Source: a virus. Taken from it: 33,606 nt of DNA. Shown piece after piece: positions 944 through 33,559 of the stretch. The stretch lies in the IMG/VR virus record IMGVR_UViG_3300046787_000219, positions 1-33,606 of that record. One strand, given 5' to 3'. The notes beneath the pieces are model-generated. The model searched no databases. It had not been told where the DNA came from and saw only the letters and a program-made list of their open reading frames with translations. Positions within the stretch are counted from its first letter, which is position 1, and each line of letters begins with the position of its first letter. The translations under genes and the position numbers were made by a program.

Positions 944-1408
944 TTATAAATCAAAAGAACCCTGCTCACGAGCCCGTTCAGTAAACAGGTCGGGTTCGTG
1001 GTCAGGGAGCAGCCAAGACCAATTTGAATAGTCAGGCTCATTTGAAGTGGGGAGTTCTTTTCCTGCAACGAGTTGGTCCCAGAGAATTATGAAGCGGCGA
1101 TAGTCACGGTTGCGTGGAGGTTGCCACCCTCGTGTTATGGCACGGCGATACTCATGCCATGCGTTGAGACCGCTGCCGAACCTCTTGTGAATTGCCATGT
1201 GGCAGTAGAAGCAAATACCGATGTACGTGAACGGCTCATGGTAGTCCTCGTTATGGGCTTGAATTGTTGCACCGTCTCCAGTGGTCAAGTGGCAGAGCGT
1301 GCACTCAGTCGGCCGAGTAATTTTGCCAGTTTTGAAGGCTCGGTAGACCTTGCCTCCTTGCTTGTCTCGAAAGGCTGCACTGAATCCGTTATAGGGGCGA
1401 CTTACCAT
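944..1408 (-). CDS. HNH-like zinc-binding nuclease candidate, 154 aa
   Basis: Contains CTLC (C36, C39), then A-H-N-E-D-Y-H-E-P around H52-H57, then ICFYCHMAIHKRF (C66, C69, H70, H74). This layout is common in small phage HNH/beta-beta-alpha-metal proteins and would bind zinc and cut or bind DNA. The C-terminal half (80-154) is unassigned and Trp/Arg-rich. No Shine-Dalgarno precedes the ATG. Instead a TATACT -10 ends 6 nt upstream, so the mRNA probably begins at the ATG itself. This is the third HNH-type gene in the window. Confidence 0.65.
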   Translation of the reverse strand: MVSRPYNGFSAAFRDKQGGKVYRAFKTGKITRPTECTLCHLTTGDGATIQAHNEDYHEPFTYIGICFYCHMAIHKRFGSGLNAWHEYRRAITRGWQPPRNRDYRRFIILWDQLVAGKELPTSNEPDYSNWSWLLPDHEPDLFTERAREQGSFDL

Positions 1409-1424: not shown

Positions 1425-1793
1425 TTAGAGGGTCTTGCGAAGCACGGTTACTTTCCATTTCGTAATTCGTGTGACCTTGAAGCCGTTTCGTAGATACCAT
1501 GCAGGGTTACGGGCGAATACCTCAATCACCTTCGCACCGCCGCTCACGGCTTCTGCGACTAGATGACGTAGTAATGCGTCTCCATGACCTTGACCACGAA
1601 CCTCAGGGGCTGTGACCGTGCCCTTGATACGAACCGTGCCAGTCTTGCCGACCCAGACCAGTGCACCGCAACTGACGTCACTGCAATACCAGACTGCACT
1701 CTCAACGGGCTCGTACGGAAGGTGCTCCATACGGTAAAGGTATTTGAACCGCTCCATGGCGGTCTCATAACTAACCTTCTGAATCTGGCTCAT
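1425..1793 (-). CDS. GNAT-family N-acetyltransferase, 122 aa
   Basis: The acetyl-CoA pyrophosphate loop is visible as T-V-T-A-P-E-V-R-G-Q-G-H-G-D-A-L-L (about residues 59-75), followed by a strand VIEVFA and the typical late motif NPAWYLRNGFKVT. The length is that of a minimal GNAT domain. The substrate is unknown. The start lies inside the end of the preceding ParB-like gene (about 23-bp overlap), so it is translationally coupled to the ParB/PAPS-reductase-like cassette. Phage GNAT-fold enzymes can modify DNA bases (Mom of phage Mu is a known example), but nothing here proves that role. A role in modifying a host protein or small molecule is equally open. Confidence 0.75.
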   Translation of the reverse strand: MSQIQKVSYETAMERFKYLYRMEHLPYEPVESAVWYCSDVSCGALVWVGKTGTVRIKGTVTAPEVRGQGHGDALLRHLVAEAVSGGAKVIEVFARNPAWYLRNGFKVTRITKWKVTVLRKTL

Positions 1794-2319
1794 TGTCGCC
1801 GCCGTCTAACTTTGTTTCGGCTGGATACCATGCGTTTGAGTATGCCCAGTCTTTGATTTTCTTGGCAGTGAATACGCTGTCTTGGAGCAGTAGGTCTACC
1901 TCGTTCAAGTGTGCACCGATTTCGGCTGCAATCTGTTCACGAGACCACCCGTACTCGTCTACGAGACTAAAGACCAACTTGTGCATTTCAACTGCAACGT
2001 GAGTTCCCTTGGCTCGGTTGATACGAACTGTAATCGCCATGGCGACATCGTCCTCAACTGGTAGAACTGCAACTGGAAGTCGGCCGCCGTAACGCTCAAC
2101 GACCGCTTTACTGTCCTGCGATAGACGCCAACGGTGGAAGCCGTCAATGACCATGCCGTTCTTGTTCACCAAGATTGGCTGTATCCAACCCGTGCTCAAG
2201 AGACTGTGCTCAAGCAACTTCAGTTCGGGCTTGTGCACACGGTTAGGATTCCAGTGATTGGCGTGCAGAGTTGAGGCTTCTAGCCACTCAATTTTGGAGA
2301 TTGGGTCGTTTTCAAACAT
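1771..2319 (-). CDS. ParB-like protein, IbrB type, 182 aa
   Basis: The N-terminal ParB/sulfiredoxin-fold domain shows N-H-W-N-P-N (21-26), Q-P-I-L-V (47-51) and the signature V-I-D-G-F-H-R-W (57-64), where D59 and R63 match the nucleotide-binding loop. It is followed by INRAKGTH (100-107) and a helical segment (GWSREQIAAEIG) ending in an acidic tail. This form is the usual partner of IbrA-like PAPS-reductase-family proteins. Only two bases separate it from that gene upstream. ParB-fold proteins can be CTPases, nucleases or kinases; which applies here is unknown. It is not a partition protein in the chromosomal sense, because no ParA or parS site is evident. Confidence 0.75.
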   Translation of the reverse strand: MFENDPISKIEWLEASTLHANHWNPNRVHKPELKLLEHSLLSTGWIQPILVNKNGMVIDGFHRWRLSQDSKAVVERYGGRLPVAVLPVEDDVAMAITVRINRAKGTHVAVEMHKLVFSLVDEYGWSREQIAAEIGAHLNEVDLLLQDSVFTAKKIKDWAYSNAWYPAETKLDGGDNEPDSEG

Positions 2320-2321
2320 GT

Positions 2322-3377
2322 CTACTTCTTTCGGGTTTGAGGTTGAATTACTCGTTTGTACTGTCCTGCCATCATTGCCTTCAAGACATAGTCGGCTGGG
2401 TACGAATCAGGTGAAGCAATTGCTCGTGCTTCAATTGAGCGTAGTTCGGCGAGTGCTTTGTCTCGCTGGTTCACGTTGTCCAAGTTGTCCATAATCCAGT
2501 CATACACGCCTGCATAAGACTGCCCGTACTTCTCAACGAGGCTAGAGCGGTCGTATTCGCCCCAATAGCGTGCCTGCACTGCAGTCTCAGGGAATACGGT
2601 CATCAACTGCTCATAGAGCGTAGGGTCAAGTCCTGCGAGTTTGTTCAACTTCTTGGCTGCCTCAGCGTGCAGTGGAGTTGCAACACGAAGTTCGCTGCCG
2701 TTCCAGATTTGCTGGTCGTAAATTGGGCAGTAAGTAATTTCCTTTTCAAAGAAGTAACGGAAAATGTCGTTCTCCTCCCAGTCGTAAATTGGCTTCACGA
2801 GCATAGCCTTTCGGCTACCAGAGGCGTTGATGTAATTCTCGTTCAGTTTGTTCACGCTGGCACGGTAACGAATTAGGCTCTCGCTGGCACGGATACCGTT
2901 CACTAGAGCCACTTTACCTTTGTACCAAGACGCCATGAGGTCGTCAGTGGTGTACTGGTCCCAAACTTTGTCGGCCGCAAAACCGAGTTCCTCGTTGTTC
3001 AGCCCGTACTCAGGCTTCGGGCGAACCCACTCACGTGAGTTGTCCCACTGAACGTACTCATGCGACTGCCCCAGAATAAACTTTGTTGAGGCGAGTGGCA
3101 CGGTCAAATATTTCATGTCTACCCACGGCAAGTGGTAATAGTGGTCTACGAAGTCAATTACAACCTGCGGAATCAACTCCTCGTCACGGAATACTACGTC
3201 CACTTTCTCAATGCCACGCTCTTGAGCAACCTCATGCACTAGGTGCAATACGGCGAGGCTGTCTTTGCCACCAGAGAACGCAACTACGACACGGTCAAAG
3301 ATGTCGTACGTGTGATGAATACGCTTCTTGGCTTCCTCATAGACGTTAGTCTCAATGTATTTCTTGTACCTAGCCAT
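2322..3377 (-). CDS. PAPS-reductase-like ATP pyrophosphatase (IbrA type), 351 aa
   Basis: Adenine-nucleotide alpha-hydrolase fold: VVVAFSGGKDSLAVLHL with the PP-loop S35-G-G-K-D-S40, then NGIRASESLIRYR (160-172) and KPIYDWEENDIFRYF (195-209), all standard for the PAPS reductase/IbrA family. The catalytic ECG-H cysteine motif of true PAPS reductases is absent: the only Cys is C217 and the C-terminus (to 351) has none. It is therefore more likely an AMP-forming thiolation- or ligation-type enzyme, or a regulator, than a sulfate reductase. The start overlaps the NrdH gene (GGAG five bases before the ATG), placing a redox partner directly beside it. Its substrate is unknown. Confidence 0.8.
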   Translation of the reverse strand: MARYKKYIETNVYEEAKKRIHHTYDIFDRVVVAFSGGKDSLAVLHLVHEVAQERGIEKVDVVFRDEELIPQVVIDFVDHYYHLPWVDMKYLTVPLASTKFILGQSHEYVQWDNSREWVRPKPEYGLNNEELGFAADKVWDQYTTDDLMASWYKGKVALVNGIRASESLIRYRASVNKLNENYINASGSRKAMLVKPIYDWEENDIFRYFFEKEITYCPIYDQQIWNGSELRVATPLHAEAAKKLNKLAGLDPTLYEQLMTVFPETAVQARYWGEYDRSSLVEKYGQSYAGVYDWIMDNLDNVNQRDKALAELRSIEARAIASPDSYPADYVLKAMMAGQYKRVIQPQTRKK

Positions 3378-3630
3378 GTCGCTCCAGTGATTTGATGTGA
3401 TTGGCTAGGCTCTTGATTTTTTCAAGGCGAAACCCAGACCAGATTTTGACGTCAGTAGTCACTATCGGTGCAGCCGTGTAACCCAGTGCTTTGAACTCAG
3501 CGAGTTTCTCAGGGTTCTCGTTGAGGTCTACTTTCGTGTACTCAATGCCTAACTTGTCGAACTGCCGAGCGGTGCTCATGCACTGAACACAATTCGGCGT
3601 CGTGTAAATGACTACTGGAATCTTTGCCAT
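3370..3630 (-). CDS. nrdH: NrdH-like redoxin (glutaredoxin fold), 86 aa
   Basis: Thioredoxin/glutaredoxin fold with the redox motif C-V-Q-C (C15, C18), which is typical of NrdH, a cis-Pro segment (A-A-P-I-V) and the NrdH-type WSGFR-x-x-x-I near 64-72. NrdH normally donates electrons to class Ib ribonucleotide reductase, but no reductase gene is in the window. It sits between the ParB-like gene upstream (TAATG overlap) and the PAPS-reductase-like gene downstream, so it may instead serve that enzyme or the host reductase. Length is normal for the family. Confidence 0.85.
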   Translation of the reverse strand: MAKIPVVIYTTPNCVQCMSTARQFDKLGIEYTKVDLNENPEKLAEFKALGYTAAPIVTTDVKIWSGFRLEKIKSLANHIKSLERHG

Positions 3631-4223
3631 TACTTGTCCTCAATTACTTCCATGTCTTGAATCATGGCAACAATTCGTTCAGCGTTAGTTTCAGCCTCAG
3701 GGTGAAGTAGGCGTGCAACCTTCAAAAACTCAAACCAGACCTTCTGCTGGTCATAGTCATCGAACACAATTTCGAATGCGATAATCGGGTTGCCTAGTCC
3801 ACGGCTCTCAACTGCATCGCCTCCCTCGGTTGAGGTGCTTTCTTGCGATACGTTCCATGCGTCAAAACCCAGAGCGTTCATGTCGAAGTCGTCTAGTTCC
3901 TCAAGGTGGCTAAGAAGTTCACGGGCGTCCCACTGAGCAAGTTCTGCAGTGCGATTGTCGGCCAGTGCGAACGCTGCAACCTTCTTGGCGTCCCAGTCAG
4001 TGGGAACGGTTACGGCGTCAATTTTGTTCCAACCGAGTTCAGTTGCTGCCTGCAGTGTGCCGTTACCTGCAACGACTGTACCGTCTGCAGTAATCACAAT
4101 TGGCTTCTGCTGCCCGAACAGCCTCAGGCTCTCCTTGAGGGCTTCAATGTTCTGGGTCGGGTGTTTGCGTGCGTTACGAGGGTCAAAAGACAGGTCGGTA
4201 ACTTCAAATGATTCAATCTTCAA
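3630..4223 (-). CDS. ParB-like nuclease-domain protein, 197 aa
   Basis: ParB N-terminal domain: D-P-R-N-A-R-K-H-P (14-22), a helix with NIEALKESLRLFGQQKPIVI, then V-V-A-G-N-G-T-L-Q-A-A (50-60) and ADNRTAELAQWD (89-99). The signature box has GNGT instead of the GHHR of classical ParB, a variant common in phage proteins of this type. I chose the TTG at 4223 because GGAG lies seven bases upstream and it overlaps the end of the RusA gene; the frame remains open further upstream but with no ribosome site. The C-terminal half (about 115-197) is acidic and unassigned. It is the first gene of the cassette with NrdH, IbrA-like and IbrB-like proteins. Confidence 0.75.
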   Translation of the reverse strand: MKIESFEVTDLSFDPRNARKHPTQNIEALKESLRLFGQQKPIVITADGTVVAGNGTLQAATELGWNKIDAVTVPTDWDAKKVAAFALADNRTAELAQWDARELLSHLEELDDFDMNALGFDAWNVSQESTSTEGGDAVESRGLGNPIIAFEIVFDDYDQQKVWFEFLKVARLLHPEAETNAERIVAMIQDMEVIEDK

Positions 4224-4716
4224 TGGGTTCTCCACAATTCTTGCAAGTAGGGGCTGGGAATAATTCGTCAATGACGGCGATACTTCGCAACGTCTCCAAC
4301 TGTGTCTCACTGAGCAGGTCTACGGTTACTTTGACGCCTGCCTGCTCTGGAGCGGCTGCATAGACTTTTCGTACGTTCCAATGAACTATGAGGCTGTCGT
4401 CCTCAATGACTTTTGAATCTACGCTCAATGCGTCACCGAGTGCTCGGCAGAGTTTGTCTAAATCTGGAGGCACGGTCGGCAACGGTCTTTTCACGCTCTT
4501 AGGGCGTGGCATGTAAAACGTGGCATGGACAACAACTGGCTCTGTGAATTGCCTGTCGTCACCCGATGCCACGTTCTCCTCAAACACGGCGTTCTTGATT
4601 GCGTTACGCCATGGCTTGACGTCAGACGCTTCAATGAATCTGCCGTTTCCAACGTAACGCTTTGACCCCTGCGGTCTAGGAGTTCCGTACGCTCGGAATG
4701 AGAGTGTTTGCCTCAT
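4213..4716 (-). CDS. rusA: RusA-like Holliday junction resolvase, 167 aa
   Basis: Shows the RusA pattern: an N-terminal strand with TPRPQGSKR, a middle segment KSVKRPLPTVPPDLDKLCRALGDAL with the catalytic-site P-D-x-D-K, then V-I-E-D-D-S-L-I, matching the family's metal-binding acidic residues. It resolves branched recombination and replication intermediates. The ATG at 4716 overlaps the stop of the small membrane-protein gene (TAATG). A longer upstream extension of the frame would run antisense to known signals and through that gene, so it was not used. It extends about 10 bases past the start chosen for the next gene. Confidence 0.88.
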   Translation of the reverse strand: MRQTLSFRAYGTPRPQGSKRYVGNGRFIEASDVKPWRNAIKNAVFEENVASGDDRQFTEPVVVHATFYMPRPKSVKRPLPTVPPDLDKLCRALGDALSVDSKVIEDDSLIVHWNVRKVYAAAPEQAGVKVTVDLLSETQLETLRSIAVIDELFPAPTCKNCGEPIED

Positions 4717-6311: not shown

Positions 6312-6635
6312 TCAACGTGCAACTTTACGGGAAAAATCGTCCTCCAAAAAGTACGCCACGCCAGACACCATGTCTCGGACGGGGACTGTTTTTGGGTCGT
6401 CCCATGAGTTCAACTTCCACCCATGGCGACGAGCGAGGTCGGCCGCAACCTCGTCCGATTCGATAAGTCCATTCATGTACGAACACAAAATCACGATGTT
6501 GCTCGGCACGTCACGAAGTTTGCTTCCACCCATGCCACGATTGGCTCGGTGGTTCGGAGACAACGCCTCAGTCTCTCCACAATGGAGGCAGTAATTGTCT
6601 CGGTCAAGATACTTCTGGAACTGTTTTTGGTTCAT
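6312..6635 (-). CDS. HNH endonuclease, 107 aa
   Basis: C16-L-H-C19 zinc pair, S-P-N-H-R (26-30) carrying the first His, then NIVILCSYMNGLIES and the helix ending RRHGWKL, a form found in many phage HNH proteins. It lies between the Cys-rich 67-aa protein and the replication protein, with a 15-bp spacing to the latter. It may be a nicking enzyme in replication or recombination, or simply a homing-type gene. Confidence 0.7.
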   Translation of the reverse strand: MNQKQFQKYLDRDNYCLHCGETEALSPNHRANRGMGGSKLRDVPSNIVILCSYMNGLIESDEVAADLARRHGWKLNSWDDPKTVPVRDMVSGVAYFLEDDFSRKVAR

Positions 6636-9088: not shown

Positions 9089-9442
9089 GTGTACAAAACT
9101 AGCCAAGAACGCAGAGACCACGACAAGTTACTTGAAGCCATGGACGCCATGGACGAATCACCATCGTGCTACAACTACCCCGATGCATTTTTCCCAGACA
9201 CGACAAACTACATTCACTCATGGGAAGTCAAGTGGGCAATTTCAACCTGCAACGACTGCCCTATCAAACAACTCTGTGCTGAGTACGGCATGAAGTGGGA
9301 AGTGCACGGAATCTGGGGTGGCACACTTCCACGTGAACGAGCCAACTGGAGAAAAGCGAACAACCGTTCGATTGAATACGACCGCCCATTTACTGACGGC
9401 AAACGAGTATCAACTAAAAACTCAAAGGGTCAGCAAGTCTGA
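9089..9442 (+). CDS. whiB: WhiB-family transcriptional regulator, 117 aa
   Basis: Has the four [4Fe-4S] cysteines C27, C54, C57 and C63 in the WhiB spacing (C-x2-C-x5-C) and the G-I-W-G-G turn (74-78) followed by a basic stretch, PRERANWRKANNR. Such proteins bind the region-4 end of the host housekeeping sigma factor and alter promoter choice; phage WhiB proteins are known to affect host gene expression. GTG start with AAGGATAGG upstream. It is the only plus-strand gene in the 1-13.3 kb part, diverges from the exonuclease and overlaps the end of the sigma-like gene tail to tail by about 21 bases. Confidence 0.93.
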   Translation: MYKTSQERRDHDKLLEAMDAMDESPSCYNYPDAFFPDTTNYIHSWEVKWAISTCNDCPIKQLCAEYGMKWEVHGIWGGTLPRERANWRKANNRSIEYDRPFTDGKRVSTKNSKGQQV

Positions 9443-10006
9443 TAAGCGGCTCAGTCCACGCTGCACACGCTTGAGAGCCCCGTCTTTGGTCAATCCAATG
9501 AGCGGGGCAATCTCCTCATAGGTGAGCCCGTCACGGAATCGCAACGTCAGGCAGTGCTTCAAGTCAGCAGGAAGCCCATAGAACTCACTACGTATTTCAC
9601 CCATGACCGACACTGCAAGATTAGCCTCATACGGCACGTTGAGCGGCTGTCCAGTCATAGGGTGCTCTGCAACAACTGTCTGCGGTGTCTCCTCCCAGAC
9701 GTACGGCAGAGCCCGTTCAAGAACCTCAACCGTGTACACCCTGTTCTGCCGAAGCGGTGCACCGTTGCTCACCGCCTGCTCACGGGCACAATACTTCGCC
9801 GCCTCCCTACGCAACGTCACATAGAGTTTCGCCTTTCCATGCGGCTCAGAACGCCAACGCTCAACATGGTGAACATGCTTGACCAGCCAAAGATACAACT
9901 CAGCCGTAACGTCCTCAGCATCAACGGCCGACCACTTACTGCCAATCACATGACCCACTTTTGACGCCGTAGACAATTCCTCAGCCGTCAGCAATTCAGT
10001 ACTCAT
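9422..10006 (-). CDS. Phage sigma-factor-like protein, 194 aa
   Basis: The C-terminal part looks like sigma region 4: LPADLKHCLTLRFRDGLTYEEIAPLIGL then a recognition helix TKDGALKRVQRGLSRL (about 143-190). The N-terminal part (DAEDVTAELYLWLVKH, about 29-44) resembles a region-2 helix. It is shorter than ECF sigma factors' usual two-domain form but close in size. It overlaps the phosphoesterase stop (four bases) and converges on WhiB. It is the best candidate in the window to recognise the special early promoters. An anti-sigma or simple DNA-binding role cannot be excluded. Confidence 0.65.
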   Translation of the reverse strand: MSTELLTAEELSTASKVGHVIGSKWSAVDAEDVTAELYLWLVKHVHHVERWRSEPHGKAKLYVTLRREAAKYCAREQAVSNGAPLRQNRVYTVEVLERALPYVWEETPQTVVAEHPMTGQPLNVPYEANLAVSVMGEIRSEFYGLPADLKHCLTLRFRDGLTYEEIAPLIGLTKDGALKRVQRGLSRLSDLLTL

Positions 10007-33211: not shown

Positions 33212-33559
33212 CTAAAGACGGCGTTTCGTGCGGTTGCCCTTCTTTGCTTCATGCCCTTCTTTTGAACTCTTGTATCGGTGGCAGTGTGGAGCAACGTGGT
33301 CATGTACCGCTTTGAGGTTGCCTAGTGAGTGGTCGTCACCTGCAACTACGTGGTCAATGGTGTCTGCACCTTCCCCGTTGCATAGGTAGCAAATCCCTTT
33401 GTCTCGCTTGAGGACTACGAGCCTTCGTGTGTTCCAGTCTTGTGGCAGTCGTTGCTTCCTCGTTGAGCCGACCCATGGTCTTTGATGTTCTTTGCATCTG
33501 CCGTATTTGGTTGCGTACCCGTTGCAGTCAGGTTCTAGACAGGGAGTAGGGGCGAGCAT
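33212..33559 (-). CDS. HNH endonuclease, terminase-associated, 115 aa
   Basis: N-terminal zinc knuckle (C7, C12, C22, H25), then HNH: C57-Y-L-C60, I-D-H70-V-V, N81 (L-G-N-L) and P-H-C-H-R (91-95) with late H103. HNH proteins next to the terminase assist cos cleavage in several phages. No good ribosome site precedes the ATG, so the start is uncertain. It is the first gene if the genome starts at the window's right end. Confidence 0.82.
   Translation of the reverse strand: MLAPTPCLEPDCNGYATKYGRCKEHQRPWVGSTRKQRLPQDWNTRRLVVLKRDKGICYLCNGEGADTIDHVVAGDDHSLGNLKAVHDHVAPHCHRYKSSKEGHEAKKGNRTKRRL

Follow-up and report, generated by a model that had tools for sequence, protein, structure and literature searches.

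The stretch analysed here (the window) is the whole of IMG/VR virus record IMGVR_UViG_3300046787_000219, 33,606 bp in length, which encodes a terminase, portal, capsid, tape measure and endolysin; the terminase shows 35-36% identity to its counterparts in the Streptomyces phages phiC31 and phiBT1. Our subject is a block of genes on the minus strand, built around an IbrA-like PP-loop ATPase and the adjoining ParB-domain protein IbrB, and transcribed in the order RusA, ParB1, NrdH, IbrA, IbrB, GNAT, HNH. Its features, apart from rusA, are the following.

3630..4223, minus strand: ParB1, a ParB domain as fused to phage DNA methyltransferases; 197 aa with a TTG start, alternative GTG start at 4310.
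3370..3630, minus strand: NrdH-like glutaredoxin with a CVQC active site; an accessory insertion outside the conserved module.
2322..3377, minus strand: IbrA-like PP-loop ATPase with a short C-terminus and the motifs SGGKDS and GxRxxES.
1771..2319, minus strand: IbrB (ParB2), with a ParB NTPase-like domain, the motifs DGFHR and NRAKGxH, and a helix-turn-helix (HTH)-like segment.
1425..1793, minus strand: GNAT-fold protein, isoelectric point (pI) 9.7, in the interchangeable third-enzyme slot.
944..1408, minus strand: HNH-type endonuclease, the last gene in the GNAT and methyltransferase forms of the block.

A preliminary description of this DNA had listed five overlapping minus-strand genes, from ParB1 to GNAT, and all of the open reading frames (ORFs) and junctions were confirmed. 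The TTG start of ParB1 lies inside the 3' end of rusA, which stops at 4213, ParB1 and NrdH are joined via TAATG, IbrA starts within the end of NrdH, a gap of 2 nt separates IbrA from IbrB, and IbrB and GNAT overlap by 23 nt. The short TTG start of ParB1 is supported by the relative in locus L005, which is 195 aa long. The family matches are PAPS_reduct (2e-16) and phrog_2302 (8.6e-116) for IbrA, phrog_2159 (1.5e-69) for IbrB, phrog_620 (1.9e-35) for ParB1, Glutaredoxin (2.3e-11) for NrdH and Acetyltransf_7 (2.7e-08) for GNAT. In comparisons with the two nearest relatives, L005 and L006, nonsynonymous differences were far fewer than synonymous ones in all block genes (pN 0.11-0.37, pS 0.67-0.90), with the strongest conservation in IbrA and IbrB (pN 0.11-0.17, pS 0.67-0.78); synonymous sites are near saturation, and these values therefore demonstrate constraint rather than a precise pN/pS ratio.

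Relatives of IbrA were collected from phage records (215 with a match), IMG/VR and bacterial genomes. The loci are mostly metagenomic contigs, many of them partial, with gene labels assigned by purpose-built profiles. The composition of the viral loci was counted over the 74 that have at least 0.9 kb upstream and at least 1.6 kb downstream of IbrA, and the alignment-based searches kept the best 80 loci, near-copies among them. IbrB adjoins IbrA in 177 of 179 loci. All of the 74 viral loci have IbrB, 72 have ParB1 and 66 have a third enzyme, whereas the redoxin occurs in two. The upstream position of ParB1 relative to IbrA was seen in 44/44 close viral loci and in 27/28 distant ones, against only 4/69 bacterial loci, and ParB1-IbrA-IbrB is therefore the viral core. 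The recurrence of this order in dozens of independent phages, along with the constraint on all block genes, means that the block is not a product of chance, and the two different ParB types around IbrA, singled out earlier as unusual, are a real and general viral feature. The HNH gene, which the preliminary description had left outside the block, belongs to it, being present in 20/20 GNAT-type loci (including L034) and 14/18 methyltransferase-type loci with full flanks. The module boundary is thus redrawn to contain the ParB1-IbrA-IbrB core, the third enzyme and, in the GNAT and methyltransferase forms, the HNH gene, with NrdH outside.

Among named isolates, prophi79-1 agrees with this arrangement. 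Arthrobacter phage Salgado has the order ParB1, IbrA, IbrB, methyltransferase, terminase, Bacillus phage 031MP003 has the order ParB1, IbrA, methyltransferase, IbrB, and Mycobacterium phage Phlyer contains the ParB1-IbrA-IbrB core without a third enzyme. A second architecture, in which a SNF2-type helicase lies beside IbrA-IbrB, was seen in 14/69 bacterial loci and in none of the viral set; a SNF2-type helicase with IbrA-IbrB is also present in phages of Lactobacillus, Streptococcus, Fusobacterium and Flavobacterium (L123:4796-5995, L184, L185, L186, L188). Three loci (L073, L075, L076) have a second, shorter IbrA-like ORF adjoining the main IbrA, which may have arisen by duplication or be a frameshifted copy.

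The redoxin is a local insertion. NrdH is found beside IbrA only in the window and in L006, and it is absent from L005, in which ParB1 directly abuts an IbrA that is 83% identical to that of the window. Its place in the module, suggested earlier, is therefore not borne out, nor is a role as an obligatory electron donor, and we rejected it as a core component. Rare co-occurrence of the five genes, put forward as a sign against a common function, was found for NrdH alone (2/74), GNAT being one of three alternatives in its slot. The protein itself contains the CVQC motif and scores 79.4 against the TIGR02194 cut-off of 85.75. Small genes at the corresponding place in prophi79-1 and Phlyer (gp94, gp2, gp3) do not resemble redoxins, as their translations contain no CxxC.

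Three kinds of third enzyme occur, a GNAT, a class-I methyltransferase-like protein and a bicupin, and none of the 74 viral loci has two of them. An apparent combination of GNAT and methyltransferase in L034 was rejected, since it arises from a spurious ORF of 50 aa within the gene for IbrB. GNATs and methyltransferases either follow IbrB or separate it from IbrA, while the usual place of the bicupin is between ParB1 and IbrA. In a phylogeny of IbrA inferred from 54 loci, with long-branch sequences omitted and 200 bootstrap trees, the GNAT and methyltransferase labels required at least seven changes, five of which were forced by well-supported branches, and neither group formed a single clade in any of the 200 bootstrap trees (0/200); an earlier, quicker tree of 60 loci needed nine changes. 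The exchange is seen most directly in a pair of loci, L018 with a GNAT and L015 with a methyltransferase, which are 92.6% identical in DNA over 3.6 kb, covering ParB1, IbrA and IbrB up to the stop codon of the last. Past this point the third gene is cleanly replaced, and 84% identity resumes inside the HNH gene.

The GNATs in the slot are diverse, with identities to the window GNAT as low as 13%, and very basic (median pI 9.7). The model of the window GNAT (predicted local distance difference test, pLDDT, 96) resembles ordinary acetyl-CoA acetyltransferases, and the protein has an RGxG acetyl-CoA motif; no Mom family or structure was among the matches listed, which leaves the earlier comparison with Mom unsupported. 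No homolog of this GNAT was found in isolated phages by tblastn, only in IMG/VR. In bacteria, a GNAT lies between IbrA and IbrB in L106, L109, L111, L115, L173 and L180, and in a Planctomycetota genome this place holds a cupin of the ectoine-synthase (EctC) family (L172:7308-7676). The methyltransferase-like proteins have a conserved D-G-LL motif and weak Pfam matches (E ~0.002, below cut-off), so that methyltransferase activity is uncertain. In L068 (7836-8600) and 29 more of the distant phages among L065-L100, ParB1, IbrA and IbrB are accompanied by a bicupin in which the motifs HxHPS and HPDSD are conserved. The cysteine-dioxygenase-like gene described near a phosphoadenosine phosphosulfate (PAPS) reductase gene in a M. 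abscessus prophage (PMC8092301) is possibly the same arrangement.

Across 78 aligned IbrA sequences, R19, SGGKDS, D65, E67, G161-x-R163, E166, R170, D199, D204, Y220 and R231 are kept in all, and the GxRxxES motif is invariant or nearly so. The AlphaFold2 model (pLDDT 93) has FAD synthase, FMN adenylyltransferase, CysD and PAPS reductase as its nearest folds, with query-normalised TM-scores of just ~0.4 because the C-terminal helical part has no match. The fold and motifs suggest that the reaction is likely AMP-forming or adenylyl-transferring. No cysteine is conserved across the alignment, and the single cysteine of the window IbrA is replaced by asparagine in 34/78 relatives. Cysteine-based sulfur transfer by IbrA was rejected on this ground, which makes two sulfur-based explanations unlikely. 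The first is a thiolation of DNA or tRNA, phosphorothioate-like and DndC-like, with NrdH as the driving redoxin, as had been suggested in the preliminary description. The redoxin in the window operon and a weak similarity of IbrA to DndC (PADLOC E 6e-08; TIGR03183 E 7e-07) are in line with it, but IbrA scores only 28.5 on TIGR03183, for which the cut-off is 290.4, the genes seen beside it include neither a cysteine desulfurase nor DndD or DndE, and nearly all relatives lack NrdH. We regard it as very improbable. The second, that the gene is a phage cysH serving assimilatory sulfate reduction, would agree with the Pfam PAPS_reduct match and with the frequent reporting of such genes as cysH auxiliary metabolic genes (PMC9301287, PMC10434257). 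Yet the CysH models score far under their cut-offs (TIGR02057, 26.9 against 254.2; TIGR00434, 30.7 against 165.1), and the ParB partners are nearly obligate; together with the missing cysteine, this makes it the most improbable of the explanations considered here.

The two ParB proteins are of different kinds. The matches of ParB1 are to the domain at the N-terminus of phage DNA methyltransferases (phrog_498, 1.8e-33; PADLOC MTase_II, 7e-19), which ties it to DNA modification. The alignment of IbrB with ParB/Noc covers the NTPase motifs and reaches into the HTH, and the invariant residues of IbrB are D59-G60-x-H62-R63, N101, A103, G105 and H107. Neither is a full member of the ParB family of chromosome and plasmid partition, with TIGR00180 scores (25.0 for ParB1, 16.0 for IbrB) below the cut-off of 58.45. 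ParB1 family members also share a recurrent C-terminal stretch, FDD-QQ-W. Rather than acting on DNA, the system may produce or alter a small molecule or free nucleotide, serving as a decoy, signal or antagonist of nucleotide-based defence, or may modify tRNA. Such a role would suit the nearest IbrA folds, FAD synthase and CysD, which adenylylate small molecules, as well as the GNAT model, which matches amino-acid and small-molecule acetyltransferases, the ectoine-synthase cupin that occupies the slot in one bacterium, and the remote resemblance of IbrB to the ParB-fold free serine kinase and SbnI, although the latter is not significant (E 0.15-0.33). The very basic GNATs, the DNA-methyltransferase type of ParB1 and a position adjacent to packaging genes argue in the other direction, and we consider a target other than DNA to be fairly unlikely.

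Of the 63 viral loci whose sequence extends 3.5 kb downstream, 47 have the large terminase there on the same strand, the median distance being ~0.4 kb. In the window, the terminase is located at the opposite end of the record, and joining the ends would place it ~2.5 kb past the HNH gene; no exact terminal repeat of 9-200 nt was found in the window to prove circularity, so that this adjacency is only suggested by the gene order. Two more HNH-type genes are present on the minus strand of the window (33212-33559 and 6312-6635), one of them directly upstream of small-terminase candidates at the far record end, and a sigma-factor-like gene lies at 9422-10006 on the same strand (phrog_354, E 9e-10). 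A site directly upstream of the terminase is a frequent one for late-gene activators, and the block may accordingly be a transcription co-activator, in which IbrB, through its HTH, and IbrA switch on late or prophage genes, as has been recorded for ibrAB and eib in E. coli, with the third enzyme modifying a regulator. The current annotation as "co-activator of prophage gene expression" and a RinA-like gene near the locus in FP_Taranis are consistent with this. An invariant PP-loop active site in 78 divergent sequences and the exchange of GNAT, methyltransferase and cupin would be unexpected for a pure regulator, however, and this explanation appears unlikely to us.

We favour, with a confidence a little short of even, a nucleic-acid modification module that most likely acts on the phage's own DNA just before packaging. 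Hypermodification of this kind fits the fixed ATP-activating core, the ParB proteins, the packaging-adjacent place and the exchange of the finishing enzyme among close relatives, as if the final group were under diversifying pressure. We infer the DNA target, the chemistry, the order of the steps and the benefit as follows. IbrB and ParB1 would bring the machinery to the DNA, and IbrA would spend ATP and release pyrophosphate, adenylylating or otherwise activating a base substituent or a small precursor. The third enzyme would finish the product, here a GNAT and in relatives the methyltransferase-like protein or bicupin, and a swap of this enzyme would alter the final group and may thereby allow escape from different host recognition. 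The ATP-dependent modification of a nucleic acid proposed earlier is thus retained as the best reading, without its thiolation part. Several observations weigh against it. The block has no conserved base-installing enzyme (transglycosylase, hydroxymethylase), eight of the 74 viral loci have no third enzyme, as is also the case in Phlyer, and ParB1 is strongly acidic (median pI 4.65 over 94 sequences), which is odd for a DNA binder. The genes upstream of the terminase are a common place for regulators too, and the role on record for IbrAB of E. coli is the regulation of prophage genes.

The closest known pairs are IbrA/IbrB of E. coli ECOR-9 and YbdN/YbdM of K-12, which are likewise adjacent PP-loop (PAPS_reduct) and ParB-domain genes, and the alignments show invariant motifs common to YbdN/YbdM and the window proteins. 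In contrast to these, the phages add ParB1 and the third enzyme, and the window IbrA is only ~20-26% identical to its bacterial relatives. DUF3440 (PF11922) matches YbdN (2.6e-32) but was not detected in the window IbrA or in phage IbrA, and the window protein is therefore an IbrA-like short variant rather than a full YbdN-type protein. The literature found on YbdN/YbdM describes regulation and no reaction. DndC and BrxP have the PP-loop PAPS-reductase-like domain in common with IbrA, and Dnd has a ParB-superfamily partner, DndB (PMC10853773), in parallel to the ParB partners of IbrA, but IbrA has no conserved cysteine and falls far below the family cut-offs, and DndA, DndD and DndE were not seen in the block. 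Compared with FAD synthase, FMN adenylyltransferase and CysD, IbrA has the DW..D and Y-C/N-x-x-Y-D stretches in common at 12-18% identity, and differs in its extra helical C-terminal region and non-metabolic gene context. A precedent is offered by phage DNA carboxymethylation, in which CmoA-CmoX-CmoY includes an AMP-forming, ATP-using ligase that finishes the DNA modification, often beside ParBc proteins (PMC12783734). CmoY is, however, an asparagine-synthetase homolog, and CmoX and CmoA were not seen in the window block. A literature search found no paper combining ParB, phosphoadenosine phosphosulfate and GNAT.

IbrA and IbrB have long been annotated in phages as "co-activators", "PAPS reductase" or cysH, without a known reaction, and the phage records also label the IbrA homologs as nucleotidyltransferase, adenylyltransferase or auxiliary metabolic gene. 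Some of the viral "cysH" sulfur-cycle genes that have been reported are probably not sulfate reductases, and counts of auxiliary metabolic genes that rest on them may be inflated. A viral core that stays fixed, joined by mutually exclusive third enzymes that have been swapped time and again, strongly hints on comparative grounds at a pathway of several steps. Slightly more tentatively, the block may represent a family of phage DNA (or nucleotide) hypermodification pathways not described before, with a fixed core, ATP activation without sulfur chemistry and an exchangeable finishing enzyme. On this model, phages that are nearly identical would be expected to differ in their chemical products, and the isolated phages Salgado, Laroye, Phlyer and 031MP003 are open to a test by mass spectrometry.

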